DNA of 41,183 nt from an uncultured Oscillospiraceae bacterium (lineage in GTDB: Bacteria > Bacillota > Clostridia > Oscillospirales > Oscillospiraceae), in contig CANRLF010000016.1 of NCBI GenBank assembly GCA_947631395.1, positions 1 to 41,183 on the forward strand, in the 5' to 3' direction. The position numbers and the translations under genes are program-made. The notes beneath the pieces are model-generated. The model saw nothing but the letters and a program-made list of their open reading frames with translations, was not told the DNA's origin and made no database searches. Positions 14,528 to 27,394 of this stretch are shown piece after piece. Numbering within the stretch: the stretch's first letter is position 1; every line of letters begins with the position of its first letter.

Positions 14528-14953
14528 TTATTTTCCCGCGAGATACCGAAGGGCGTCGAGGTAGCCGTCAAAGCCCCGGCCCTTTACGGTCAGGGCGCAG
14601 GCTGAGCGGATATAGCTTATTTTACGAAATTCGTCCCTTGAGTCGGGGTCGGATATGTGGACCTCCACCGTGGGGATGCCCACGGCCTTGACTGCGTCAA
14701 GGAGGGCGACGCTGGTGTGGGTGTAGGCACCGGGGTTTATTATGATACCGTCTATACGGCCGTAAGCCCCCTGGATGGCGTCAACAAGGGCGCCCTCGTG
14801 GTTGGACTGGAAAAACTCCACCTCCACGCCAAGAGCGCGGGCCTCGTCGCTTATGAGCCGGAGCAGGTCGGCATAGGTGCTCTTTCCGTATATGTCGGGC
14901 TCCCTTATACCGAGCATATTGAGGTTTGGGCCGTTAATAACGAGTATTTTCAC
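14528..14953 (-). CDS. aroQ: 3-dehydroquinate dehydratase, type II
   Basis: Third step of the shikimate pathway: dehydrates 3-dehydroquinate to 3-dehydroshikimate. 141 residues, the normal length of the dodecameric type II enzyme. It begins KILVINGPNLNMLGIREPDIYG, which holds the conserved GPNLNxLGxREPxxYG with the catalytic Arg and Tyr. FFQSNHEGALVDAIQ, INPGAYTHTSVALLDA and VEVHISD follow, supplying the conserved Asn, His and Glu/His residues. GTG 14953 was chosen: GGAG lies upstream and longer in-frame starts would run deep into the previous gene. It overlaps the aroE-aroK gene by 20 nt. Confidence 0.95.
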   Translation of the reverse strand: MKILVINGPNLNMLGIREPDIYGKSTYADLLRLISDEARALGVEVEFFQSNHEGALVDAIQGAYGRIDGIIINPGAYTHTSVALLDAVKAVGIPTVEVHISDPDSRDEFRKISYIRSACALTVKGRGFDGYLDALRYLAGK

Positions 14954-16178
14954 AAAAATCACTCCAGATCTTTCCGGCGCACTGCTCGAGAGTGCCGTCG
15001 TTTTTGACGGTGACGTCGGCAAAGGCGGTGTAGAGCGGGTCGCGGGTATCAAAGAGCGCCCGAAGTCCCTCAAGCCCGCCGGCGGAGAGGGGACGGCCGC
15101 GGGTGGTCAGCCGCTCCAGGTCCCGGTCCACCCGGTAGATCCTGCCGGACTGGCGCAGGAGCTCATAATTTTCAGGTACGGTGACGCATCCGCCGCCAGT
15201 GGTGACTATACGGCCGCCCCGGGCGCATATGTCACGGAGGGCCTGGGTCTCGATGCGGCGGAACTCCGCCTCGCCCCGGCCGGTTATTATATCGGAGGGC
15301 TTGGCCCCCCAGTGGGCAAGGATATATTTGTCCACGTCCACCAGACTGCGGCCTGACTTCTGGGACAGGAACTTGCCGACGGTGGACTTCCCGCAACCGG
15401 GCATACCGATGAGGACGATATTCGTGGACTCCCGGGCGAGCCGGTCTGTCACCGTCTCGATGGCGGAGGCGTCGAGGCTCTTGTCGAAGAACAGCTCCTC
15501 CGCCGCCTTGGCCTGGGCCACCAGCATGGCAAGGCCGCCGGCGTGGGGGATGCCGAGCTTTTCGGCCTGCATTATAAGGCCGGGGCGGAGGGGGTTGAAG
15601 ATGACGTCCATCACGCCCTCAAGTTTTGGGAAGGCCAGAAGGTCCACGGGGGAGTCGGGGCAGTTGGGGAACATGCCCACGGGGGTGGTGTTTATGAGCA
15701 TCTGGGCGTCCGCGTTTTTCTCAAGATTGCCGTAATTGTTCTCGCCGTTTCTTGAGATGACGACGATTTCGCTGGCTCCAAGGGAACCAGCCGCCGCCAC
15801 GGCGGTGTGGGAGGTGCCCCCTGAACCCAATATTACCACTTTTTTACCCGAAAAATCAAGCCCCGCGCGCAAAATAGCGTATTCCAGGCCATATTTATCC
15901 GTGTTGTAGCCGAAAAGACGGCCCTTTCGGTTGACGACCGTGTTCACGGCTCCGATGTCACGGGCCGCCGGGTCCACCTCGTCAAGGTATTTGAATACCT
16001 CCTGCTTATAGGGGATGGTCACGTTCACGGCCCCGAGATCCGGCCGGCGCAGAAAGCCCTCCAGCTCCTCCGGCTCCAGCTCATAGAGCTTATAGCCGCG
16101 GCAACCGAAACGGCGGTGTATCTGGGGGGACCAGCTGTGACTGAGCTTCCGGCCGATGAGGCCAACGACCCGGCGCAC
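14934..16178 (-). CDS. Fused shikimate dehydrogenase - shikimate kinase
   Basis: 414-residue bifunctional enzyme covering shikimate pathway steps 4 and 5. Residues 1 to about 250 are AroE: SHSWSPQIH substrate loop, NVTIPYK with catalytic Lys58, GYNTDKYG with Asp94, and ILGSGGTSHTA for NADP. Residues about 252-414 are AroK: Walker A GMPGCGKST (258-266), DVDKYI, GEAEFRRIE, TTGGGCV and the lid TRGRPL. Both halves keep their catalytic residues. GTG 16178 is preferred over ATG 16241 because AGGAGG, located in the end of pheA, is 6 nt upstream and the longer form adds unrelated residues. It starts 1 nt after the pheA stop. Confidence 0.93.
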   Translation of the reverse strand: MRRVVGLIGRKLSHSWSPQIHRRFGCRGYKLYELEPEELEGFLRRPDLGAVNVTIPYKQEVFKYLDEVDPAARDIGAVNTVVNRKGRLFGYNTDKYGLEYAILRAGLDFSGKKVVILGSGGTSHTAVAAAGSLGASEIVVISRNGENNYGNLEKNADAQMLINTTPVGMFPNCPDSPVDLLAFPKLEGVMDVIFNPLRPGLIMQAEKLGIPHAGGLAMLVAQAKAAEELFFDKSLDASAIETVTDRLARESTNIVLIGMPGCGKSTVGKFLSQKSGRSLVDVDKYILAHWGAKPSDIITGRGEAEFRRIETQALRDICARGGRIVTTGGGCVTVPENYELLRQSGRIYRVDRDLERLTTRGRPLSAGGLEGLRALFDTRDPLYTAFADVTVKNDGTLEQCAGKIWSDFCENTRY

Positions 16179-16179
16179 C

Positions 16180-17322
16180 TCAGACCTCCTGATAGTTGCC
16201 AAGGTAGCGGAGGGACCTGCAGGAGTGCTCGAGGCTCTCAAGCATGTCGACTACCTTGGGGTCGCGGACGCTGGCTTCGATCTCGAAGAAGAAGAGGAAC
16301 TCAAAGTCGTGGCCGACCATGGGGCAGGACTCCAATTTGATAAGATTGAGCTCTAAAGCGGAGATGTGGCTAAGTACGTCATAGAGGGCCCCGGGGCGGT
16401 GCTCACAGCTGAGGACCAGGGTGATCCTGTTGGCTCCGGGGTACACGGTGGGCTTTTTGGTGATGCAGATAAAGCGGGTGTAGTTGTTGTCGGAATTTTG
16501 TATCCGGCCGCAGCTCAGGGCCTCGAGGCCATAGAGCTCGGCGCAGTTGGAGCTGGAGAGGGCGGCAACGCCGGGGTCTGCGCACTGGGCCACGTATTTG
16601 GCGGCCACGGCGGTGTTGTCCATCTTCTCTATCTCCACCTTGTCGCCAAGGGACTTTAAAAACTCACTGCACTGGCCAAGGGCCTGCTCGTGAGAGACTA
16701 TCTTTTTGATCTCCGAGAGCTTCACGCCGGGCTTTACAAGGAGCTCGTGGGAGATGCAAAGGCGCTCGGAGCGGACGACGGACACGTCCTTCGTCTGGAG
16801 AAGGTCATAGACGGCCCGGACGGAGCCGTTGGAGCTATTTTCGATGGGAACGACGCCGAACTGGCAAAGGCCGCTCTGGACCGCGTCAAAGACGGCCTCG
16901 AAGGTCTTGACATAGACGATATTGCCGCGGGGGAACATACGGTCCGCGGCCATCTGGGAGTAGGCCCCCTCCACGCCCTGGCAGGCGATAAGGCCGGTCT
17001 CGGGGAAGAGCTCAGGGGAGTCCTCCAAGGATCTTTCGATGAACGAGCGCACGTTGGAGCCGGTGGTGCGGAATTTGCGCTGGTATGTGCGGCTGAGCTC
17101 GAAGATGGTGGAGAAGAGCCGGTGGGTGTAGAGCTCGTACTCCCCGGACTTCTCGCCGACGCGGCGAAGTATCTCGCGCTCGCGCTCTTTATTGAGGATG
17201 GGCATATTCTCCCGGGCCTTCACCTCGGCGATCTCCTTGGAAAGGTCCATGCGATCCAAAAAGAGCTTGAGTATGTCCGCGTCCAGGCGGTCTATTTTTT
17301 CGCGTATCTCAGTAAGTTCCAT
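16180..17322 (-). CDS. pheA: Bifunctional chorismate mutase - prephenate dehydratase (P-protein)
   Basis: 380 residues making phenylpyruvate from chorismate. The chorismate mutase domain (about 1-90) has LTEIREKIDRLDADILKLFLDRM and VKARENMPILNKEREREIL. The dehydratase (about 107-285) has GVEGAYSQMAA, VPIENSSNGSV and NNYTRF with the catalytic Thr. The ACT regulatory domain (about 298-375) has RPGALYDVL and LESCPMVG. In E. coli P-protein the feedback motifs read GALV and ESRP; here the Arg is Cys, which could change Phe sensitivity. ATG with GGAGAAGG upstream. It overlaps the aroC end by 14 nt. Confidence 0.95.
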   Translation of the reverse strand: MELTEIREKIDRLDADILKLFLDRMDLSKEIAEVKARENMPILNKEREREILRRVGEKSGEYELYTHRLFSTIFELSRTYQRKFRTTGSNVRSFIERSLEDSPELFPETGLIACQGVEGAYSQMAADRMFPRGNIVYVKTFEAVFDAVQSGLCQFGVVPIENSSNGSVRAVYDLLQTKDVSVVRSERLCISHELLVKPGVKLSEIKKIVSHEQALGQCSEFLKSLGDKVEIEKMDNTAVAAKYVAQCADPGVAALSSSNCAELYGLEALSCGRIQNSDNNYTRFICITKKPTVYPGANRITLVLSCEHRPGALYDVLSHISALELNLIKLESCPMVGHDFEFLFFFEIEASVRDPKVVDMLESLEHSCRSLRYLGNYQEV

Positions 17323-18403
17323 TTTCCTTCTCCTCCATGAGTATGTCGAGTATTGTAAAGGCCGTGACGGCCTCGATGACGGGGACGGCGCGGATGGCTA
17401 CGCAGGGGTCGTGGCGGCCCTTTATCTCCAGGGTGGCCGGGGCCATGCGGCTCAGGCTGACGGTCTGCTGGGGCCGTGAGATCGACGGGGTGGGCTTCAT
17501 GGCGCAACGGAGGACCAGGGGCATACCTGTGGTTATGCCGCCGATCACGCCGCCGGCGTCGTTTTTGGATGTCCGCACCTGGCCGTTTTCAATCATAAAT
17601 GGGTCGTTGTGCCGGCTGCCGCGCATTTTGGCGGCCTCAAAGCCCGCGCCGAACTCCACGCCCTTGACCGCCGGGACGCCGAAGAGGGCGGCGGCGAGGC
17701 GGTTCTCGACGCCGTCGAACATGGGCGAGCCCAGGCCCGCGGGCAGGCCCACGGCGGCGCACTCGATGACTCCGCCCACGCTGTCGAGCTCGGCTCTGGC
17801 CTCCTCGATGGCCTGCGCCATCCTCTCGCCGGCGCTGTCGCTTATGACGGGGAGGGGCTTTTTGGCTATCTTCTCAAAGAGCTCTCGGCCGGGGCACAGG
17901 GGGAAGGGGTCGTCGGCGATGTTGGCGACGCTCATAAGATGGGCGCCGACGTACACACCGCGCCTTGAGAGTATCTGCCTGGCGATGCCGCCGGCGACGC
18001 ACAGGGGGGCGGTCAGGCGGCCGGAGAAGTGGCCGGAGCCGCGCATGTCAACCTTGTCGCCGTAACGCATCTTGGCGGTGAAGTCCGCGTGGGAGGGGCG
18101 GGGCAGGTCAACAAGAGCGGCATAGTCGCCTGAACGCTGGTCGGTGTTCTCGATCACGGCGCAGAGGGGCGAGCCGGAGGTGACGCCGTCGACTGTCCCG
18201 GAGAGGAACACGGGCCGGTCCTCCTCATGCCGCTGGGTGGAGAGGCGGGAGGTACCGGGCTTCCGGCGGGACATGAATGTGTACAGCTCCTCCTCGTCTA
18301 TGCATATCCCCGCGGGCAGGCCGTCGATGACGACGCCGATGGCCCGGCCGTGGGACTGGCCGAATACGGAGAGCTTCAGTTTGTGGCCGATTTCAGAGGA
18401 CAT
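17309..18403 (-). CDS. aroC: Chorismate synthase
   Basis: Converts EPSP to chorismate using reduced FMN; seventh pathway step. 364 residues. It begins MSSEIGHKLKLSVFGQSHG, with the conserved GxSHG histidine, then VIDGLPAGI, SRRKPGTSRLSTQRHEED, SHADFTAKMRYGDKVDMRGSGHFSGR, GGIARQIL and GGVIGGITTGMP, the full set of family signatures. ATG 18403 has GGAGGG 7 nt upstream; an in-frame upstream ATG at 18436 would add MRNTRDLEGSR and was rejected. It overlaps the end of aroA by 11 nt. Confidence 0.96.
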   Translation of the reverse strand: MSSEIGHKLKLSVFGQSHGRAIGVVIDGLPAGICIDEEELYTFMSRRKPGTSRLSTQRHEEDRPVFLSGTVDGVTSGSPLCAVIENTDQRSGDYAALVDLPRPSHADFTAKMRYGDKVDMRGSGHFSGRLTAPLCVAGGIARQILSRRGVYVGAHLMSVANIADDPFPLCPGRELFEKIAKKPLPVISDSAGERMAQAIEEARAELDSVGGVIECAAVGLPAGLGSPMFDGVENRLAAALFGVPAVKGVEFGAGFEAAKMRGSRHNDPFMIENGQVRTSKNDAGGVIGGITTGMPLVLRCAMKPTPSISRPQQTVSLSRMAPATLEIKGRHDPCVAIRAVPVIEAVTAFTILDILMEEKENGTY

Positions 18404-19559
18404 CCGCGATCCCTCCAAGTCTCTTGTATTCCTCAAAGAAGTTGGGGTATGATTTGCCGACGGCCTGGGCGTCCAGGACGGTGACGGGCCCGGAGGCCCG
18501 GGTGGCCAGGACGGCGGCGGCCATGACGATCCGGTGGTCGTTGGCGCCGTCCACCGTGCAGGAGCTAAGGCTGTCCGCGCCGGTGACGGTGAGGAAGTCA
18601 GGCCCCTCGGCGCATTTTACGCCGAAGGCGCGGAGCATGGCCCAGGTGGCGGCTATGCGGTCGGACTCCTTCATGCGGAGACGGGCGGCGTTCACAAAGT
18701 ATGTCTCGCCGTCCCTCAGAGCGGCCATGGCCGCCAGGGGGGGCAGGAGGTCGGGTATCTGGGCCAGGTCCACGGTGACGGTCCCGGGCTTATTAAGCGC
18801 CTCCGCAAGCTCCGCCACGAGCCTGTCGCCCTGGGGGGAGCGGGGGTCAAGCCCGAGAATATCCACAGGGTTGCCGAGGCTCCTGGCGGCGTACCAGAAG
18901 CCGGCCTGGGACCAGTCGGCCTCCACGGTGTAGTCACAGGGTGTGTATTTTTGGTTTCCATTTACAAAAAATCGCTGAAAATCCAGGTTTTCAACGGAAA
19001 TTCCGTACTTTTTAAGGACCTCAACCGTCATGGTCACGTACTCGCGGCTCTCGAGGGGGGAGGTGATGACGATCTCGCTGTCCCCCGGAAGGAGGGGCAG
19101 GGCGTAGAGAAGGCCCGTGACGAACTGGCTGGACACGTCCCCGGGGAGCTCGAACACTCCGGGGCGGAGGGCGCCCATGACGGCAAGCTCGCCGGGGCTT
19201 TTTTCAAAGTGGACGCCGGTCTTGCGGAAGATGTCAAAATAGGGCTCCTGGGGCCGGTCCATAAGCCGCCCGTGGCCCGTGAATTTGGCGCCGCCGCGCA
19301 ATACCAGGGAGAGGGGGATCAGGAAACGGAGGGTGGAGCCGGACTCGCCGCAGTCAAGGAGCGGAAAGCCGCTGTCGAGACGGAAAAGGGCGTCAAGGCA
19401 CCGCTTTGTGGCCTCGATGTCCTGGGAGGAGGCCAAATTTTCTATCCGGTCCGCCGCGCCGGCGAGACGGCCGGCGATGAGGGCCCGGTGGGAAAGGGAC
19501 TTGGAGGGGGGCGGGGTCACCGCGCCGCGAAGGAGACCGGGAGTCACGCGTATGTTCAT
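18393..19559 (-). CDS. aroA: EPSP synthase (3-phosphoshikimate 1-carboxyvinyltransferase)
   Basis: Transfers the enolpyruvyl group of PEP to shikimate-3-phosphate; sixth step. 388 residues, slightly shorter than the usual 420-430. Motifs: PPSKSLSHRALIAG (active-site Lys and Ser), LDCGESGSTLRFLIPL, DRPQEPYFD, GDVSSQFVTGLLYALPLL, RLRMKESDRIAA, and a C-terminal VDGANDHRIVMAAAV. ATG 19559 overlaps the aroB stop as ATGA; an in-frame GTG at 19568 is the alternative. The active-site GESGSTLRF region alone does not settle the EPSPS class. Confidence 0.95.
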   Translation of the reverse strand: MNIRVTPGLLRGAVTPPPSKSLSHRALIAGRLAGAADRIENLASSQDIEATKRCLDALFRLDSGFPLLDCGESGSTLRFLIPLSLVLRGGAKFTGHGRLMDRPQEPYFDIFRKTGVHFEKSPGELAVMGALRPGVFELPGDVSSQFVTGLLYALPLLPGDSEIVITSPLESREYVTMTVEVLKKYGISVENLDFQRFFVNGNQKYTPCDYTVEADWSQAGFWYAARSLGNPVDILGLDPRSPQGDRLVAELAEALNKPGTVTVDLAQIPDLLPPLAAMAALRDGETYFVNAARLRMKESDRIAATWAMLRAFGVKCAEGPDFLTVTGADSLSSCTVDGANDHRIVMAAAVLATRASGPVTVLDAQAVGKSYPNFFEEYKRLGGIADVL

Positions 19560-20644
19560 GGACGCCACCCGGGCATGTCCCTGAGCAGGTCCGCCACGTC
19601 GGCCTTCGGAAGGCGGAGGGGCCGGACGGTACCGAGCTTTTCAAGGAGGATGAGGGTCACGCTGTCGCCGGAGCTCTTCTTATCCACGCCGATGGCCCGC
19701 TCCATGTGCTCAAGGTCGCACTCGATATTGGTGGGCAGGCCGAGGGGGGCCAGGACGGAGGCTATTTTTTCGGCGGTGCCGGGCTCGGTGACGGAAAGCC
19801 TCTCGCCGAGCTTAGAGATGGCGACCATGCCGGCGGCCACGGCCTGACCGTGGGTCCAGACCCGGTAATCGCCGGCGAGCTCATAGGCGTGGCCCAGGGT
19901 GTGGCCGAAATTCAGTATCATGCGAAGGCCGGTGTCGTGCTCGTCGGCGTTGACGACCTGCCTTTTTATGTCACAACAGGTGTAGAGTATGTGGGTGATG
20001 CCGGCCATGAGGGCGGCCCGGGTGGGCCGGGAGGCGAGGAAGCGGAAAAACTCCGCGTCCCATATGCAACCGTATTTGACCACCTCGGCCATGCCGGACA
20101 TGAAGTCGGCGTCGGGGAGGGTGGAGAGGACCTCAGGGTCCATGAGGACGAGCTTTGGCTGGTAGAAGGTGCCCACCAGGTTCTTGCCCTCGGGCAGGTC
20201 GATGGCGGTCTTGCCGCCGACGGAGGAGTCCACCTGGCTCAAAAGGGTGGTGGGTATCTGGACAAGGTCCACGCCCCGCAGGATGGTGGAGGCCGCGAGG
20301 CCCGCAAGGTCCCCGACGACGCCGCCGCCAAGGGCGACCACGGCGTCGGAGCGGGTGATGCCGAAGGAGGCCATGGCGCTCCACAGCTCCAGAAGGGAGG
20401 CGGCGCACTTGCTCGTCTCGCCGGCGGGGATGACGTGGGTGCGGACCATGAAGCCCCGGGTCTCAAGGGAGGCCACGAGCCTGGGGCCGTATATGGGGCC
20501 CACGTTTGAGTCGGTCAGCACGAAGAGCTTTTTCGCCCTGACGAGGACGTTCTTTATATGCTCGCCGGCCCGGTCAAGTACACCGGGCTCGATGATTATG
20601 TCGTAGCCGGAACCGGCCTCCACATGAAGGGTCTTTGTTTCCAT
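19556..20644 (-). CDS. aroB: 3-dehydroquinate synthase
   Basis: Cyclises DAHP to 3-dehydroquinate using NAD and a metal; second step. 362 residues, normal size. Motifs: FVLTDSNVGPIYG, PAGETSKCAASLLELWSAMASFGITRSDAVVALGGGVVGDLAGLAAS (NAD-binding), the conserved TTLLSQVDSSVGGKTAID, GMAEVVKYGCIWD, and the metal ligands in LNFGHTLGHAYE. ATG overlaps the tyrA stop (TGATG), with GGGAGG 6 nt upstream. Confidence 0.96.
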   Translation of the reverse strand: METKTLHVEAGSGYDIIIEPGVLDRAGEHIKNVLVRAKKLFVLTDSNVGPIYGPRLVASLETRGFMVRTHVIPAGETSKCAASLLELWSAMASFGITRSDAVVALGGGVVGDLAGLAASTILRGVDLVQIPTTLLSQVDSSVGGKTAIDLPEGKNLVGTFYQPKLVLMDPEVLSTLPDADFMSGMAEVVKYGCIWDAEFFRFLASRPTRAALMAGITHILYTCCDIKRQVVNADEHDTGLRMILNFGHTLGHAYELAGDYRVWTHGQAVAAGMVAISKLGERLSVTEPGTAEKIASVLAPLGLPTNIECDLEHMERAIGVDKKSSGDSVTLILLEKLGTVRPLRLPKADVADLLRDMPGWRP

Positions 20645-21483
20645 CAGGTACCTCCCGCGGTCATCTTCAGCTCACGGCCGTTTTTAAGAAGCTCCCGGAG
20701 CTTGTCGGGGTCGCCGCCGCGAAGGGCGTCAAGGTATTCGCCAAGGTGGCCGATGAGGGTCTCAAGCTCAGCGGTGAGAAAGTCACGGTCGGCCAGGAAG
20801 AGCTCGGTCCACATGTTCTCGTCAAGGTAGGCGACCCTGGTCATATCCCGGAAGGAGCCGGCGGAGAAGCCCATATGGGTCTGGGCGGTGGGGGATTTGA
20901 CATAGGCCGAGGAGGTTATGTGGGCAAGCTGGGAGGTGTAGGAGATTATCCTGTCGTGCTCGGTGGGGGTGGAGTAGGTTATCATCCCGAAGCCCAGGGA
21001 CAGGAAAAACCGCTTAAGGCTCTCAAGAAGTGGGGCCTCGGCGCGCTCGTCGGGGGTCAGGATCATGGACGCCCCGGCGAAGAGGTAGGCGGTGGAGTTT
21101 TTAAAGCCGCCGTGCTCCTTGCCGGCCATGGGGTGGCCGCCCACATAGGAAAAGCCGTATTTGTCGGCCAGAGGCCGGAGGCTGTCCACGATAAGGCGCT
21201 TTACTCCGCACAGGTCCACGAGCACGGCGGAGCTTGAGATGTGCCGGGCGTTTTCCTCCGCCCAGGCTATCAGCGCCGCGGGAGGCAGGGCGGCCATGAT
21301 GAGGTCGCACTCGCCGATACTGCGGCTGTCCAGCACGTTGTCGATGGCTCCGGAGGCGAAGGCCAGGGCCATGGTGTCGGGGTTTAAGTCCGCGCCATAG
21401 ACGGTGTGGTCGGTGTGGAATTTTACAGCCTTGGCCATGGAGCCGCCGATAAGCCCCAGGCCGACGATGCCGATGGTTGACAT
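20644..21483 (-). CDS. tyrA: Prephenate dehydrogenase
   Basis: Oxidative decarboxylation of prephenate to 4-hydroxyphenylpyruvate, first step of the Tyr branch. 279 residues. The NAD-binding GLGLIGGS (8-15) is followed by acidic YGADLNP, the prephenate-site segment GGHPMAGKEHGGF, TEHDRIISYTSQLAHITSSA with the conserved catalytic His, and GGFRDMTR-like AGSFRDMTRVAYLDENMW. It has no C-terminal ACT domain (stops at about 279), so feedback by Tyr through such a domain is not expected. It is separated from aroF by an unusual 226-nt hairpin-rich spacer. Confidence 0.94.
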   Translation of the reverse strand: MSTIGIVGLGLIGGSMAKAVKFHTDHTVYGADLNPDTMALAFASGAIDNVLDSRSIGECDLIMAALPPAALIAWAEENARHISSSAVLVDLCGVKRLIVDSLRPLADKYGFSYVGGHPMAGKEHGGFKNSTAYLFAGASMILTPDERAEAPLLESLKRFFLSLGFGMITYSTPTEHDRIISYTSQLAHITSSAYVKSPTAQTHMGFSAGSFRDMTRVAYLDENMWTELFLADRDFLTAELETLIGHLGEYLDALRGGDPDKLRELLKNGRELKMTAGGT

Positions 21484-21499
21484 AATTAAAATTCAACTT

Positions 21500-21700
21500 C
21501 CTTTCTGGCTCCCGGAATTGTCGAAAAAGGCTGCGCCTTTTCCGACAAGAGGGGACGCGTGCGGAAATTTTTTCTGAATTTTGCGAAATTCAGAAAAATT
21601 TTCCTGCCGTTTTGCTCCGCGCACGGCCCGAGGGGCCGCACACTCCGCAAAACAAAAGGGATTTTTTCCGACGCGCATGTCGTCGGAAAAAATATTAAAG
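21500..21700 (-). repeat. Four successive hairpins in the aroF-tyrA spacer
   Basis: Read on the minus strand: (A) TTTTTTCCGAC/GTCGGAAAAAA around 21667-21698; (B) GTTTTGC/GCAAAAC enclosing TGCGGCCC-CTC-GGGCCG around 21606-21652; (C) GGAAAATTTTTCTGAATTT/AAATTCAGAAAAAATTTCC around 21560-21602; (D) GTCGGAAAAGGC-GCA-GCCTTTTTCGAC around 21517-21545. None has the GC-stem-plus-U-run form of a terminator. They may be RNA processing or stability elements, or a repeat insertion. Confidence 0.7.
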
Positions 21701-21709
21701 AGAGATTAC

Positions 21710-22720
21710 TTATTTCTGCTCGCTTACTACCTTGTGGATGGCGCGGAGCTTGTTGGCGAGGGAGTCGAATACGGCGGGCTTCAGGGACTGGGGACCGTCG
21801 CACAGGGCGTGGGCGGGGTCGTTGTGGACCTCGATGATGAGGCCGTCGGCTCCCGCGGCCACGGCGGCGCAGGACAGGGGGTCCACCAGCTCCCACTTCC
21901 CGGCGGAGTGGCTGGGGTCAATTATCACGGGCAGGTGGGAGAGCTTCTTCAATACGGGGATGGCGGACACGTCAAGGGTGTTGCGGGTGTAGGTCTCGAA
22001 GGTGCGGATGCCGCGCTCGCAGAGGATGACCTTCTCATTGCCGCCGGCCATGATGTACTCGGCGCTCATCAAAAGCTCCTCATAGGTGTTGGCAAGGCCG
22101 CGCTTTAGCAAAATGGGCTTATCCTGATGGCCCAGGAGCTTCAGGAGCTCAAAGTTCTGCATGTTCCGGGCGCCCACCTGGATTATATCCACGTCCTCGA
22201 AAAGGGGCAGGTGGGAGGCGTCCATGAGCTCGGTGACGATGGGCAGACCCGTGGCCTCCCGGGCGAGCTTTAGAAGCCTTATGCCCTCCTCATGGAGGCC
22301 CTGGAAGGAGTAGGGGGAGGTGCGGGGCTTGAATGCGCCGCCGCGCAACAGTGTGGCTCCGCTGGCCTTCACGGCCTTTGCCACCTCGATTATCTGCTCC
22401 TCGTTCTCCACCGAGCAGGGGCCGGCGATAAGGGTGAGGTTGCCGCCGCCGATCTTGGTGTTGCCGACCTCGATGACGGTGTCCTCGGGGTGAAATTTGC
22501 GGTTGGCGTTTTTATAGGGCTCCTGGATGCGCTTTACGTCCTCCACGATGTCCAGGGCCAGGAGGAGGTCCATGTCAAGCTTGGAGGTGTCGCCCACCAG
22601 GCCCATGACGGTCTGGTGCTCGCCCACGGAGGTGTGGATCTCTATGCCCTTGCTCTGGAGCCAGGTCATAAGGGAGTTTACCTGGGCCTGGTTGGGATTT
22701 TCCTTTAGAATAACTATCAT
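21710..22720 (-). CDS. aroF: DAHP synthase, type I-beta with N-terminal regulatory domain
   Basis: Condenses PEP and erythrose-4-phosphate to DAHP, the committed first step. 336 residues. A ferredoxin/ACT-like N-terminal domain of about 70 residues (MIVILKENPNQAQVNSLMTWL) precedes the barrel. Barrel motifs: LIAGPCSVEN, GATLLRGGAFKPRTSPYSFQG, TELMD, IQVGARNMQNFELL, PILLKRGLANTYEE, ILCERGIRTFETYTRNTLDVSAIPVLK, IIDPSHSAGK. In relatives such as the Thermotoga enzyme the N-terminal domain gives inhibition by Tyr or Phe. The symbol aroF is used for this family in many Firmicutes. It is the first structural gene of the operon, directly after the attenuator. Confidence 0.95.
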   Translation of the reverse strand: MIVILKENPNQAQVNSLMTWLQSKGIEIHTSVGEHQTVMGLVGDTSKLDMDLLLALDIVEDVKRIQEPYKNANRKFHPEDTVIEVGNTKIGGGNLTLIAGPCSVENEEQIIEVAKAVKASGATLLRGGAFKPRTSPYSFQGLHEEGIRLLKLAREATGLPIVTELMDASHLPLFEDVDIIQVGARNMQNFELLKLLGHQDKPILLKRGLANTYEELLMSAEYIMAGGNEKVILCERGIRTFETYTRNTLDVSAIPVLKKLSHLPVIIDPSHSAGKWELVDPLSCAAVAAGADGLIIEVHNDPAHALCDGPQSLKPAVFDSLANKLRAIHKVVSEQK

Positions 22721-22741
22721 TGTGATGCTCTCCTGTCTGCC

Positions 22742-22778
22742 AATAAGAAACCCTCACAGCCGGTCTGGCTGTGAGGGT
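22742..22778 (-). terminator. Attenuator terminator (3:4 hairpin) upstream of aroF
   Basis: On the minus strand ACCCTCACAGCC-AGACC-GGCTGTGAGGGT (12-bp perfect stem, 5-nt loop; 22750-22761 with 22767-22778) followed by TTCTTATT. It lies between the leader peptide and the aroF RBS, so it can stop transcription before the operon. Confidence 0.88.
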
Positions 22779-22873
22779 CAAGGCCATAAATTTTTTGCCC
22801 GTAGACCTATTTCAGCCAAACCGATCAAGCCTTACCAAAATAATAGGTAAAGCTAAAGTAAAAGCTGAAATAG
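22762..22873 (-). promoter_or_regulatory. Alternative RNA pairings of the aro attenuator (1:2 and 2:3)
   Basis: Segment 1 (22864-22873, CTATTTCAGC inside leader codons 9-12) pairs perfectly over 10 bp with segment 2 (22807-22816, GCTGAAATAG) just after the leader stop. Segment 2 also extends to GGTTTGGCTG (22813-22822), which pairs over 10 bp with one U-G with segment 3 (22762-22771, CAGCCAGACC), the ascending arm and loop of the terminator. The 1:2 and 2:3 helices share bases of segment 2, and 2:3 and 3:4 share segment 3, so each pair is mutually exclusive as in trp/phe-type attenuators. Confidence 0.85.
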
Positions 22874-22899
22874 TTGTTTGTAAGCGCGGGAACTTTCAT
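22825..22899 (-). CDS. Aromatic-rich leader peptide of the aro operon
   Basis: A 24-residue open frame, ATG at 22897-22899 and TGA at 22825-22827. The peptide starts MKVPALTNN, then has the core YFSFYFSFTYYF, then GKA. The core holds 4 Tyr and 5 Phe in 12 residues and no Trp, matching an operon that makes Phe and Tyr but has no trp genes. GAGGTG lies 5 nt before the ATG, and the predicted transcript starts about 25 nt upstream. Seven of the nine aromatic codons are TTT or TAT. Its layout parallels the E. coli pheA and pheST leaders. Ribosome stalling on scarce Tyr- or Phe-tRNA would mask segment 1 and free the antiterminator; completing translation would cover segment 2 and let the terminator form. 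The peptide itself is not expected to have another function. Confidence 0.88.
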   Translation of the reverse strand: MKVPALTNNYFSFYFSFTYYFGKA

Positions 22900-22931
22900 A
22901 CACGCACCTCACGGACGATCATAACGGGCAT

Positions 22932-22960
22932 ATAATATCACTTTATTACCCAAAAGACAA
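22932..22960 (-). promoter_or_regulatory. Promoter of the aro operon
   Basis: TTGTCT (22955-22960) and TATTAT (22932-22937) on the minus strand, spacer exactly 17 nt. The predicted start near 22925 precedes the leader peptide. Confidence 0.75.
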
Positions 22961-23019
22961 TATGGCAATTTGCACAAAGATGAGGTTTTTCAGCGATTTT
23001 GGGTCTGTTGGGCAATCGG

Positions 23020-23362: not shown

Positions 23363-26300
23363 TTAGTATTCGTATACGCCTTCGAATACGAGGACGGAGT
23401 CGCCGGTTAGGGTGACGAAGTCGTCGGAGTAGTTGACGGTCACGTCGCCGCCGGGGAGTTTTACGGTGATGTCGCGGGCTTTTTTGATGGTGCCGCGCTC
23501 GGTGGCGGCGATGACGGCGGCGCAGGCGGCGGTGCCGTTGGCGCGGGTCTCGCCCTCGTCGGGGGAGTAGACGCGGATGCGCAGGGTGTCGTCGTTTACC
23601 ACCTTGACGAACTCGACGAAGGCCCCCTCGGGGAGGATGCCGGAGTTTACGAGGGCGGAGCCCACGGCCACCACGTCCACCTTGCCAAGGTCCTCGGTGA
23701 ACACGGTGCAGTGGGGGACGCCGAGGGAGGAGCAGGTTATGCGGTACTCCTGTCCGTCCACGGTGACGGGCTCGTCGATGACGCGGGAGACGCCGATGAG
23801 GTTGACCTGCATCCTGCGGGCGTCCAGGAAGGCGGTGCCCATGTGGACACTGACGGTGCTGACACGGCCGTTGCGGGTGAAGAGCTGGAGGGAGCGGATG
23901 CCGGTGTCGGTCTGGATGGTCATGTGCTCGTGGCGGACGATGCCCTTGTCATAGAGGTACTTGCCCACGCAACGGATGGAGTTGGCGGCCATGCGGCCCT
24001 CGGTGCCGTCCTGGTTGAAGATGCGCATCTTGGCGTCGGCTCCGACGGAGTTCTCGATGAGGACCAGGGCGCTGCCGCCGATGCCGGTGACCCGGTCGCA
24101 GAGGGTGACGCTCAGGGACTCGGGGCTCGTTATGCGGCCGTCACGGTTATCGAAGAAGATATAGTCGCTGCCGCAGGTGTGCATTTTCGCGAAGTGGATG
24201 AGCTCACGGCTGCGGCGCATGTTGTTGAGGTCCACGAGCTCCGTGTTCTCGTTGGTGAAGCGGCTCATAAGGGTGTCGGCCACGGCCTCGGCGGTGTCGA
24301 GGCTGGTGATGCAGGGCACGCGCATACGCACGGCCTTGGCGTGGAGCTCGATGTAGTCGCCCATGGTGTCGTCATAGAGGGCGCCTGTGTAGACGATGAA
24401 GCTTATGGCTCCGCCGTCAAGGAGGGAGTAGGCGTCGTGGACGTGCTTGACCGTTGTGACCTCAAGGCCCAGATTGCGGACCACCGCGGCGGTGTCCGGG
24501 GTGGCGTAGAGGACCATGTGGAGGTCGTTGAGCTTTTTGGCAAGGCGCACGACGTCGGGGAGGTCGTGGTTCTCGATGGAGAGGAGGACGCCGTTTTTCC
24601 CGGGGGTGAAGGCGTTGGTGAGGTCATAGCCCGCGGCGCGCAGGCCCTTGAATAGGGCTTCGGTGAAGGTGCGGCCAAGGCCCAGGACCTCGCCGGTGGA
24701 TTTCATCTCGGGGCCAAGCATGGAGTTGGCGTCGGTTATCTTCTCAAAGGAGAACACGGGGACCTTTATGGCGTAATATGGGGGCGTGTCACACAGGACC
24801 CGGTCATAGCCGAGGCCCTTTAAGGTGGCGCCCATCATAACGCGGGAGGCCACGTCAACCATGGGGATGCCGGTGACCTTGGACAGATACGGCACGGTGC
24901 GGCTGGCGCGGGGGTTGACCTCGATGACGTAGAGCTCCTTTTTGTAGATGAGGTACTGGATATTGACGAGGCCACGGGTGCCCAGCTCCAGCGCCAGGCG
25001 TGTGGAGCACTCCACCACACGGGCCATCATCTTATCGGTGAGGTTATAGGGGGGATAGACGGCGATGGAGTCGCCGGAGTGGACGCCGGCCCGCTCGATG
25101 TGCTCCATTATTCCGGGCATGAGCACGTCGGTGCCGTCGGATATGACGTCCACCTCGAGCTCGGTCCCGGGCATGTACTTGTCGACCAGGACGGAGTTGT
25201 CCTCCCGCTCGGTGCTGGCGAATATGAGGGCCATGTAGGCCCGGACGTCCGCGTCCTCGTGGGCGATGACCATGTTCTGGCCGCCGATGACGTAGCTTGG
25301 GCGGAGGAGCACGGGGTAGCCAAGGGTGTTGGCGGCCTCAAGGGCCTCGTCCAACGTGTGGGTGCCCATGCCACGGGGGCGCTTTATGCCAAGGGACTCC
25401 AGAAGGGCGTCGAAACGCTCCCGGTCCTCGGCAAGGTCGATGCCCTCGGCGCTGGTGCCCAGAATGCGGATGCCCTGTTTGTCAAGGTACTCCGTGAGCT
25501 TGATGGCCGTCTGGCCGCCGAAGGCCACCACCACGCCGATGGGCTTTTCCACCTTTATGACGCCCATGACGTCCTCGGGGGTCAGGGGCTCGAAGTAGAG
25601 CCTGTCGGCGGTGTCATAGTCGGTGGACACGGTCTCGGGGTTGTTGTTGATTATGACCACGTCATAGCCGAGATTTTTGAGGGTGACGGCGCAGTGGACG
25701 GAGCTGTAATCAAATTCGATGCCCTGGCCTATGCGTATAGGGCCGGAGCCGATGACGATGACGCTCATCTTGCGACGGGGCATGGGACGGGAGTCGCACT
25801 TCTCGTCATAGGCCGAGTAGTAGTAGGGGGTCTCGGCCTCAAACTCCGCGGCGCAGGTGTCGACCATCTTATAGACGGGGTCCCGGTGGGGGATGAGCTC
25901 CTGGCCGGAGAGGGCCCGGAGGGAGGCGTCGGTGTAGCCGTAACGCTTGCCCCGGAGATACGTTTCCTCGTCTATGCCGTTTTCGGAGATGTATTTTTCA
26001 AAGTCCACGAGATTTTGGAGCTTTGAGATGAACCAGCGGTCGATCATGGTGACCTCGTGGATGTGCTCGTGGCTGACGCCGGCCTTCAGGGCCTCGAACA
26101 CGGTGAACACGCGAAGGTCGTCCATGGAGGCCAGGCGCTCCTCAAGAGTCTTGCCGGGCTCGGGGGCGCGGTTCAAGGTGCTCTGGCCGATCTCGGCGCC
26201 GCGGATGGCCTTCATAAGGGCGGACTCGAAGTTCTGACCAATGCTCATAACCTCGCCGGTGGCCTTCATCTGGGTGCCGAGCTTCCTGTCGGCTCCGTGG

Positions 26301-27394
26301 AATTTATCGAAGGGCCACTTGGGAAATTTAACGACGCAGTAGTCCACCGTGGGCTCAAAGCAGGCGTAGGTCTTGCCGGTGATGTCGTTTTTTATCTCGT
26401 CCAGGGTGTAGCCCAGGGCTATCTTCACCGCCACCTTGGCGATGGGGTAGCCGGTGGCCTTACTGGCCAGGGCGGAGGAGCGGGACACACGGGGGTTGAC
26501 CTCGATGACGGCGTACTCGAAGCTGTCGGGGTTCAAGGCGAACTGGCAGTTACAGCCGCCCTCGATGCCCAGGGCCGTGATGATGTCCAGGGCCGCGCTG
26601 CGGAGCATCTGGTACTCCTTGTCCATCAGGGTCAGGGCCGGGGCCACGACGATGGAGTCGCCGGTGTGGATGCCCACGGGGTCGAAGTTCTCCATGGAGC
26701 AGACGGTTATCACGTTGCCCGCGCCGTCGCGGATGACCTCGAACTCTATCTCCTTCCAGCCGAAGATGTATTTTTCGATGAGGACCTGGGTGATGGGGGA
26801 GGTCTCAAGTCCAACGAAGGCCACCTGACGGAGCTCCTCGGCGTTGTAGGCCACGCCGCCGCCTCCGCCGCCAAGGGTGAAGGCGGGACGGACGATGACG
26901 GGGTAGCCGATGCGGTCGGCGATGGCAAGGCAGGTGTCCACGTCGTTGGCTATGTCCGAGGGGATGATGGGCTGGCCGATGGACTCCATGGTCTCTTTGA
27001 AGAGCTCGCGGTCCTCGGCCTTGTCTATGGCGTCGGCGTTGGTGCCGATGAGCCTGACGCCGTGCTTTTGCAAAAAGCCCTCGTGGGTGAGCTGCATGGC
27101 GATGGTGAGGCCCGTCTGGCCGCCGAGGCCGGCAAGGAGGCAGTCGGGCTTTTCCTTTAAAATTATGCGCTTTACGGTGTCGGCGTTCAGGGGCTCCAAG
27201 TAAACGGCGTCAGCCATTTCTCCGTCGGTCATAACCGTGGCGGGGTTGGAGTTTACGAGGACGGACTTTACGCCCTCGGATCTCAAAATGCGGCATGCCT
27301 GAGTGCCGGCGTAGTCAAACTCGGCGGCCTGGCCGATGACGATGGGGCCGGAGCCGATGACCATTACTTTTTTTATCGTCCTGTCTAAAGGCAT
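23363..27394 (-). CDS. carB: Carbamoyl-phosphate synthase large subunit fused to a degenerate diaminopimelate-epimerase-like domain
   Basis: 1343 residues, against about 1070 for ordinary CarB. Residues 1 to about 1060 are a full synthetase, making carbamoyl phosphate for arginine and pyrimidines: N-terminal GSGPIVIGQAAEFDYAGTQAC, ATP-grasp 1 (RPAFTLGGGGGG), the oligomerisation region, the second half IGSGPIRIGQGIEFDYSSVH with ATP-grasp 2 (RPSYVIGGQNM, VIEVNPRASRTVPY), and an MGS-like allosteric domain (about 935-1060). Residues 1064-1343 (23363-24205) match DapF: FAKMHTCGSDYIFFDN, RIFNQDGTEGRMAANSIRC, LGVPHC, SPDEGETRANGTAACAA. The two catalytic Cys of DapF are Ala1136 and Asn1286, and several substrate-contact positions also differ. 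The ATG overlaps the carA stop (TAATG). The reading frame is continuous, with no sign of frameshift. Confidence 0.93.
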   Translation of the reverse strand: MPLDRTIKKVMVIGSGPIVIGQAAEFDYAGTQACRILRSEGVKSVLVNSNPATVMTDGEMADAVYLEPLNADTVKRIILKEKPDCLLAGLGGQTGLTIAMQLTHEGFLQKHGVRLIGTNADAIDKAEDRELFKETMESIGQPIIPSDIANDVDTCLAIADRIGYPVIVRPAFTLGGGGGGVAYNAEELRQVAFVGLETSPITQVLIEKYIFGWKEIEFEVIRDGAGNVITVCSMENFDPVGIHTGDSIVVAPALTLMDKEYQMLRSAALDIITALGIEGGCNCQFALNPDSFEYAVIEVNPRVSRSSALASKATGYPIAKVAVKIALGYTLDEIKNDITGKTYACFEPTVDYCVVKFPKWPFDKFHGADRKLGTQMKATGEVMSIGQNFESALMKAIRGAEIGQSTLNRAPEPGKTLEERLASMDDLRVFTVFEALKAGVSHEHIHEVTMIDRWFISKLQNLVDFEKYISENGIDEETYLRGKRYGYTDASLRALSGQELIPHRDPVYKMVDTCAAEFEAETPYYYSAYDEKCDSRPMPRRKMSVIVIGSGPIRIGQGIEFDYSSVHCAVTLKNLGYDVVIINNNPETVSTDYDTADRLYFEPLTPEDVMGVIKVEKPIGVVVAFGGQTAIKLTEYLDKQGIRILGTSAEGIDLAEDRERFDALLESLGIKRPRGMGTHTLDEALEAANTLGYPVLLRPSYVIGGQNMVIAHEDADVRAYMALIFASTEREDNSVLVDKYMPGTELEVDVISDGTDVLMPGIMEHIERAGVHSGDSIAVYPPYNLTDKMMARVVECSTRLALELGTRGLVNIQYLIYKKELYVIEVNPRASRTVPYLSKVTGIPMVDVASRVMMGATLKGLGYDRVLCDTPPYYAIKVPVFSFEKITDANSMLGPEMKSTGEVLGLGRTFTEALFKGLRAAGYDLTNAFTPGKNGVLLSIENHDLPDVVRLAKKLNDLHMVLYATPDTAAVVRNLGLEVTTVKHVHDAYSLLDGGAISFIVYTGALYDDTMGDYIELHAKAVRMRVPCITSLDTAEAVADTLMSRFTNENTELVDLNNMRRSRELIHFAKMHTCGSDYIFFDNRDGRITSPESLSVTLCDRVTGIGGSALVLIENSVGADAKMRIFNQDGTEGRMAANSIRCVGKYLYDKGIVRHEHMTIQTDTGIRSLQLFTRNGRVSTVSVHMGTAFLDARRMQVNLIGVSRVIDEPVTVDGQEYRITCSSLGVPHCTVFTEDLGKVDVVAVGSALVNSGILPEGAFVEFVKVVNDDTLRIRVYSPDEGETRANGTAACAAVIAATERGTIKKARDITVKLPGGDVTVNYSDDFVTLTGDSVLVFEGVYEY

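Follow-up and report, generated by a model that had tools for sequence, protein, structure and literature searches.

A Tyr/Phe-rich leader peptide upstream of aroF represents a widespread family of putative ribosome-mediated attenuators in Clostridia

The aroF gene of an uncultured Oscillospiraceae bacterium is preceded by what we consider, with a probability of about 0.9, to be a ribosome-mediated transcription attenuator that senses the charging of both tRNA-Tyr and tRNA-Phe. The window that we analyzed, 41,183 nucleotides of contig CANRLF010000016.1, carries the leader and the genes downstream of it on the minus strand. The promoter, the leader open reading frame (ORF), the conserved Tyr/Phe codons, the alternative helices and the terminator can all be read from the sequence, and from them we infer the mechanism. 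A preliminary description of this DNA had already proposed leader-peptide attenuation. All of its coordinates that we checked are correct and our data support its reading, which was nevertheless too narrow, since the leaders form a widespread family.

A consensus scan places the promoter at 22932–22960, with the −35 element TTGTCT and the −10 element TATTAT separated by the 17-nt spacer described earlier. A TG precedes the −10 element, so that the extended −10 reads TGATATTAT. The pattern TTGTCT-N17-TAT[TG]AT is present 29–32 nt ahead of the leader start in 19 of 19 loci (L001–L019, the window included). Directly upstream of the −35 element, at 22963–22978, we also noticed a block, TTTGTGCAAnnTGCCA, that is found in all 19 of these loci and in none of the 11 loci L020–L030; it is possibly an operator or an UP element. 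Upstream of the promoter, on the same strand, lies an ORF of 1343 codons (23363–27394).

The leader ORF (22825–22899) follows a Shine-Dalgarno site, GAGGTG, at 22905–22910 and has 24 codons, MKVPALTNNYFSFYFSFTYYFGKA, with the stop codon TGA at 22827–22825. As had been pointed out, 9 residues in a stretch of 12 are Tyr or Phe. Two 10-bp helices occur exactly where they had been proposed: the outer helix 1:2 joins CTATTTCAGC to GCTGAAATAG (22873–22864 with 22816–22807, 10 of 10 pairs in the window), and the antiterminator helix 2:3 joins GGTTTGGCTG to CAGCCAGACC (22822–22813 with 22771–22762, with one U-G pair). The intrinsic terminator 3:4 (22749–22779) is likewise in its expected place, but its stem comes out at 13 pairs in our scan rather than 12. 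Its T-rich tail starts at 22748 and is interrupted (TTTCTTATT); the scan found one such site, with 0.7 expected from shuffles. Helices 1:2, 2:3 and 3:4 are mutually exclusive. Segment 1 (22873–22864) lies within the Tyr/Phe codons, and the stop codon of the window stands two bases before segment 2, in line with the earlier account.

Two further elements, both absent from that account, appear in the predicted fold: an inner hairpin, P2, within the aromatic codons (AGCTTTACC/GGTAAGGCT, 22854–22846 with 22836–22828), and a closing helix, P0 (GTCCGT/ACGGGC, 22916–22911 with 22802–22797), which adjoins the leader Shine-Dalgarno site. The leader RNA folds at −44.0 kcal/mol without the terminator (z −4.3) and at −71.1 kcal/mol with it (z −6.5), and in both cases 0 of 200 shuffles were as good. 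The window thereby contains the features of a leader attenuator, namely a short ORF with a ribosome binding site and a run of codons for the product amino acids, a segment 1 that overlaps the control codons and pairs with segment 2, the 2:3 alternative, and a terminator before aroF.

In the proposed mechanism, a shortage of charged tRNA-Tyr or tRNA-Phe would stall the ribosome in the aromatic codons, where it would cover segment 1. Segment 2 would then be free to pair with segment 3, that is, the 5′ arm and loop of the terminator, and with helix 2:3 formed RNA polymerase would read into aroF. With both tRNAs charged, the ribosome would reach the stop codon and cover segment 2, and the terminator would form. 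It would form as well when no ribosome is present, with helix 1:2, the inner hairpin and the closing helix holding segment 2. Because the run mixes Tyr and Phe codons, one switch would answer either shortage, unlike a T-box with its single specifier codon. Such a leader would suit a pathway in which one RNA must answer either of two amino acids.

The genes downstream, identified by Pfam, encode ten enzyme functions, in agreement with the earlier claim of an aromatic operon of that size. The first is aroF (DAHP synthase, 21710–22720; DAHP_synth_1 2.1e-77, DAHP_snth_FXD 2.7e-21), the only aroF in the genome. It is followed by tyrA (prephenate dehydrogenase, 20644–21483; PDH_N, PDH_C), aroB (3-dehydroquinate synthase, 19556–20644), aroA (EPSP synthase, 18393–19568), aroC (chorismate synthase, 17309–18436), pheA (chorismate mutase and prephenate dehydratase, 16180–17322; CM_2, PDT), an aroE-aroK fusion (shikimate dehydrogenase and shikimate kinase, 14934–16241; Shikimate_dh_N, SKI) and aroQ (type II dehydroquinase, 14528–15073; DHquinase_II). 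For the last two genes the coordinates are those of the listed ORFs, and the true starts possibly lie further in. In 29 of the 30 loci L001–L030 tyrA lies at most 230 nt downstream of aroF, the exception (L003) being cut by a contig end. The gap between aroF and tyrA in the window (21500–21705) includes a roughly 200-nt element that bears inverted repeats and has about 40 other copies in the genome, whole or partial, at 70–95% identity; by its look it is a miniature mobile or REP-like element. Gene order suggests that these genes form one operon. Because the repeat separates aroF from tyrA, and may be a stop to transcription, we only infer that the leader controls the whole of it.

Of 60 relatives, 48 have aroF, and we aligned 29 leaders, including that of the window (28 from its genus and one from its family; L027, which repeats L025, was left out). 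Seven codon columns are Phe or Tyr in 26–29 of the 29 sequences, with TTT, TTC, TAT and TAC exchanging for one another. Selection for either of the two aromatic residues would give this pattern, and RNA structure alone would hardly do so. The conservation of aromatic codons among relatives, which the preliminary description had named as a check, is therefore borne out through both synonymous and Phe/Tyr exchange. All 29 sequences have TTT as the aromatic codon inside the stem of the inner hairpin, in keeping with the demands of pairing.

The same enrichment is seen in a wider sample of 129 aroF upstream regions, redundant sequences included, which consists of L001–L030, 19 loci from the family and order, and the 80 closest relatives in named contigs; one locus, with only 107 nt before a contig end (L047), was excluded. 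By aroF, the closest named relatives are Oscillibacter and metagenome-assembled genomes labelled Clostridia, Oscillospiraceae and similar, and on these names we take the class sampled here to be Clostridia. O. valericigenes Sjm18-20 (L060) is one named carrier of the leader family. Scoring frames of 8–50 codons for Phe, Tyr or Trp within 12 residues, we found at least six in 109 regions, at least seven in 93 and at least eight in 68, leaving 20 of 129 with fewer than six. The corresponding numbers were 22, 4 and 0 among 652 regions upstream of other ORFs (mechanically found ORFs of at least 150 codons on named contigs, not annotated genes), and 5.3%, 1.1% and 0% among 1,290 dinucleotide shuffles of the aroF upstream regions. 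A terminator was detected by scan downstream of 104 of the 109 leaders with at least six aromatics. In 74 non-redundant leaders with at least seven, Phe makes up 38.0%, Tyr 28.6% and Trp 0.5% of the densest 12 residues; Phe and Tyr are both present there in 74 of 74, and Trp occurs anywhere in the peptide in 4 of 74.

These data bear on the reading that the leader is a metabolite riboswitch or is bound by a protein, and that the Phe/Tyr frame is a by-product of T-rich sequence. The strongly conserved structure, with its nearly invariant inner hairpin, would fit such an RNA. The aromatic columns, however, vary almost only among the four Phe/Tyr codons and in one frame, dinucleotide shuffles never reach eight of 12, and the helices of the wider sample differ in sequence while their pairing is kept, which together make this reading very improbable. 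Two side observations concern the peptides themselves. Five loci of the class-wide survey described below (L201, L205, L214, L239 and L259) carry a second type of leader in which a Trp-Gly-Tyr/Phe run is followed by a Gly-Tyr and, close to the end, by a Cys, and in L109 the Phe-Cys-Cys end of the peptide is the antiterminator strand read in frame.

Pair counts were taken from the unedited MAFFT alignment of the 29 sequences, in which some rows are misplaced near the closing helix and the terminator loop; with that reservation, P0, 1:2, the inner hairpin and the terminator together are paired in 87% of cells, against 35–54% when slid. The same four helices have 89 cells with two-sided change, compared with 35 in shuffles (0 of 500), and a covariation score above shuffles, but their 16 two-sided pairs are not clearly above the 13.6 of shuffles (72 of 500). 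Taken singly, the terminator is paired in 93% of cells with two-sided change in 7 of 12 pairs. Helix 1:2 is paired in 77% of cells (37–59% slid), has 15 two-sided cells against 7.6 in shuffles and also exceeds them in its covariation score, whereas the number of its pairs with two-sided change, 4 of 10, does not exceed shuffles in the 29 sequences. The covariation anticipated for 1:2 was thus recovered at the level of cells and not at that of pairs.

The inner hairpin is nearly fixed within the genus: 7 of its 9 pairs are invariant in the 29 sequences and none has two-sided change. The alignment is therefore neutral, neither for nor against it. In the 74 non-redundant loci, a stem of at least 9 pairs within 60 nt of the start of the aromatic run is found in 51, compared with 6.9% of shuffles, and 31 of the 74 are singly better than 95% of their own shuffles. 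The stem sequences differ widely among 66 hand-picked folded loci.

The hairpin also helps to judge whether the leader peptide, together with free Tyr or Phe as ligand, might itself stall the ribosome, as TnaC does with Trp. Arrest peptides of the TnaC type are defined by conserved residues needed for arrest, and a conserved end, SFT-YYF-GKA, is indeed present in the genus. SFT and GKA, however, are encoded by the two arms of the inner hairpin, and L016 keeps the hairpin yet reads TVRLKRFG after the aromatic run. Moreover, the wider samples keep the aromatic richness and not the rest of the peptide. With a peptide that varies outside the aromatic run, and ends differently in L016, the leader does not fit the TnaC-like class, and we regard nascent-peptide arrest as improbable here.

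The closing helix is paired in 74% of cells (27–49% slid), with 16 two-sided cells against 7.8 in shuffles (0 of 500) and a covariation score that is likewise higher than theirs. Five of its 6 pairs show two-sided change, no more than in shuffles (4.4), and a slide of +1 gives 6. Among 34 core loci, P0 segments pair better with their own partners than with swapped ones (−12.6 and −10.8 kcal/mol, 0 of 10,000 permutations), although this advantage is absent in several single loci. Since P0 pairs specifically and the Shine-Dalgarno region is paired in the predicted fold, control by leader translation could be real and yet act mainly by way of P0 and of how accessible the leader ribosome site is, the terminator being minor. 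Support for P0 comes from the 29 aligned and 34 core loci, while in the wider samples both the terminator and the antiterminator keep their pairing; we give this possibility a small chance compared with attenuation at the terminator.

In the 29 sequences helix 2:3 is paired in 88% of cells, against 21–51% slid. Two-sided change is seen in 2 of 11 pairs within the genus, not above shuffles, because one strand, segment 2, hardly varies. Within the genus, the compensatory pairing that the preliminary description had called for is present for the terminator, which covaries, and is not seen above shuffles for 2:3. Beyond the genus, we paired the stretch from the aromatic run to the terminator with the 5′ arm and loop of the terminator and compared the result with dinucleotide shuffles. 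Of 74 non-redundant loci, 41 reached p ≤ 0.05 and 19 reached p ≤ 0.01, while 33 fell short of p ≤ 0.05. In the class-wide sample, unfiltered for redundancy and without 2 leaders that have a T-box motif and 7 that have no terminator, the numbers were 32 and 23 of 47. When partners were swapped among 112 non-redundant loci taken from the two samples, own partners paired at a mean of −16.4 kcal/mol and swapped ones at −10.9 kcal/mol, and 0 of 10,000 permutations equalled the own pairing. A locus's own terminator ranks first among the possible partners in 12 of the 112 loci and within the top tenth in 60. This swap is the best single piece of evidence that helix 2:3 is real. Together with the kept aromatic codons and the covarying terminator, it decides the sequence-based check set by the preliminary description in favour of that reading. 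The textbook position of the stop codon in the window represents a minority: a pattern located segment 2 in 48 of the 74 loci, and the stop lies before it in 16 and after it in 32.

As the 129 regions had been chosen by closeness to the aroF of the window, we made a second sample across the class. It comprises 196 genomes, at least 90% complete and drawn evenly from the class, of which 144 have aroF. The best match was taken in 121 of the 143 genomes other than that of the window (22 were left out), and 118 of these loci were long enough to score, three being too short. At least seven aromatics in 12 precede aroF in 56 of the 118; setting aside two with a T-box motif leaves 54, and a terminator was found by scan in 47 of them. 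The earlier remark that leader-peptide attenuation would be notable in Firmicutes thus understated the case, as 54 of 118 class genomes have such aroF leaders with no T-box motif.

Searched against its own genome with E up to 1, a core model of the leader (96 positions, 40 sequences) finds the aroF leader and nothing else. Within the order its matches fall in 47 of 394 genomes, which represent 25 of 168 genera, and it is narrow in that it demands the hairpin sequence of the window's group. Each of the 30 matches that were retrieved is immediately upstream of aroF and in its orientation, at least 7 of the 30 sharing loci with the model itself. At the gathering score, Rfam release 15 gave no leader match in the window or in the loci of ten relatives. 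The best sub-threshold match, RF04312 trpB at 22740–22836, scored 29 bits where 59 are required, and with E up to 1 this family had no match in two relatives. In L083, L111, L112 and L117, whose bins are named Victivallales, Treponema, Thermoguttaceae and Treponemataceae, aroF is likewise preceded by an aromatic leader whose 2:3 pairing is good (p 0.00–0.02). Either transfer with aroF or wrong binning would account for these; the names of carriers that are not Clostridia (Treponema, Lentisphaerae, Victivallales, Thermoguttaceae) are those of metagenome bins and are possibly wrong.

T-boxes are the usual device in Firmicutes, and a leader of that type, through direct binding of uncharged tRNA-Tyr or tRNA-Phe, would sense the same tRNAs. 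The genome has nine T-box matches, among them ones before tyrS and pheS, and a T-box-like motif occurs in 18 of the 118 aroF upstream regions of the class survey. The leader region itself, however, has no match to RF00230 at E up to 10, the TGGNACCGCG motif is absent from 22700–23000, and the whole-genome search (E up to 0.001), which does recover T-boxes below the Rfam cut-off elsewhere, finds none here. With both the RF00230 match and the antiterminator motif absent, and the nine matches elsewhere serving as positive control, a T-box at this locus has a negligible probability; the exclusion that the preliminary description had asked for is thereby provided. As a separate matter, leaders regulated by TRAP have about eleven closely spaced (G/U)AG repeats, and only 4 (G/T)AG occur in 178 nt of this leader, 46–55 nt apart.

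Two of the nine T-box matches score over the Rfam cut-off. Those before trpE, tyrS and pheS, at 89.3, 82.8 and 72.0 bits, are below the cut-off of 93 but show the GGTGGTACCGCG end. The first long ORFs after eight of the matches (L131–L138) are valS, leuA, the gamma subunit gene of a 2-oxoacid oxidoreductase, trpE, thrS, tyrS, cysE and pheS; tyrS starts about 430 nt after its match. From these positions, T-boxes appear to control Trp synthesis and the Tyr and Phe synthetases, and the joint Phe/Tyr pathway has the leader peptide. It would seem that a single genome senses the same tRNAs by two different kinds of RNA device, T-boxes for the synthetases and leader translation for the Phe/Tyr pathway.

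Attenuation by a translating ribosome relies on coupling between RNA polymerase and ribosome. The accessible part of a 2026 paper classes Bacillota, at the level of the phylum, as having runaway transcription (PMC13323073), which would weaken this kind of control. A NusG pause motif, TTNTTT, is not enriched in the 74 leaders (126 occurrences against 144.5 in synonymous shuffles); between the run and the terminator it occurs 41 times, against 17.5 in a mononucleotide shuffle, a weak control. We see roughly even odds that Tyr/Phe leader attenuation is among the main controls of entry into the aromatic pathway in Clostridia, with RNA polymerase and ribosome coupled at least over these leaders and the inner hairpin and closing helix keeping them in step. 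The aroF leaders offer a concrete and widespread test of transcription-translation coupling in a phylum which that paper, as far as its accessible part goes, classes as runaway (PMC13323073). Given that none of the eleven loci scanned has a match in Rfam 15, the new family could also join the annotation of gut Clostridia.

The sensing principle is a known one, and leader-peptide attenuation is a known kind of control. The pheA and trp attenuators of E. coli have a leader peptide rich in the product amino acid, segments 1–4, a stop codon between segments 1 and 2, and a terminator before the first gene. The leader of the window resembles them in its run of product residues, its segments 1–4, its stop between 1 and 2 and its terminator. 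It differs in belonging to another phylum, in mixing Tyr and Phe over the whole chorismate, Phe and Tyr pathway, and in two added helices, the inner hairpin among the control codons and the closing helix beside the leader ribosome site. T-box leaders (RF00230) also read tRNA charging and end at a terminator, but unlike this leader they need no translation and use one specifier codon.

Searches of full text, mostly without subscription papers, returned no description of aroF leader attenuation in Clostridia, and PMC8632094 was the only source in that text to treat an aroF leader. Its accessible part proposes leader attenuation upstream of aroF in Acholeplasma for the uORFC-13-1 motif, and mentions a proposal for E. 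coli aroF (PMC8632094). Like the leader of the window, uORFC-13-1 has a candidate leader ORF with a Phe codon and an apparent terminator adjoining it; unlike it, the motif comprises 24 sequences from Acholeplasma and unnamed environmental sources, and the part seen names at least one Phe residue but not a Tyr/Phe run (PMC8632094). As far as the compared literature was accessible, it describes neither a mixed Tyr/Phe run that serves an entire pathway nor the inner hairpin, the closing helix or the spread across the class. Within Firmicutes, the accessible parts of two papers predict leader-peptide attenuation for hisS and hisZ of bacilli (PMC2965389) and for his operons (PMC9413887), the same predicted kind of control as here but over histidine genes. 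The leucine-rich ilv-leu attenuator of Staphylococcus aureus, according to the available part of its description, is supported by mutants (PMC5794164), and it is, as proposed here, a case of leader-peptide attenuation in a Firmicute, though for branched-chain amino acids and in Bacilli.
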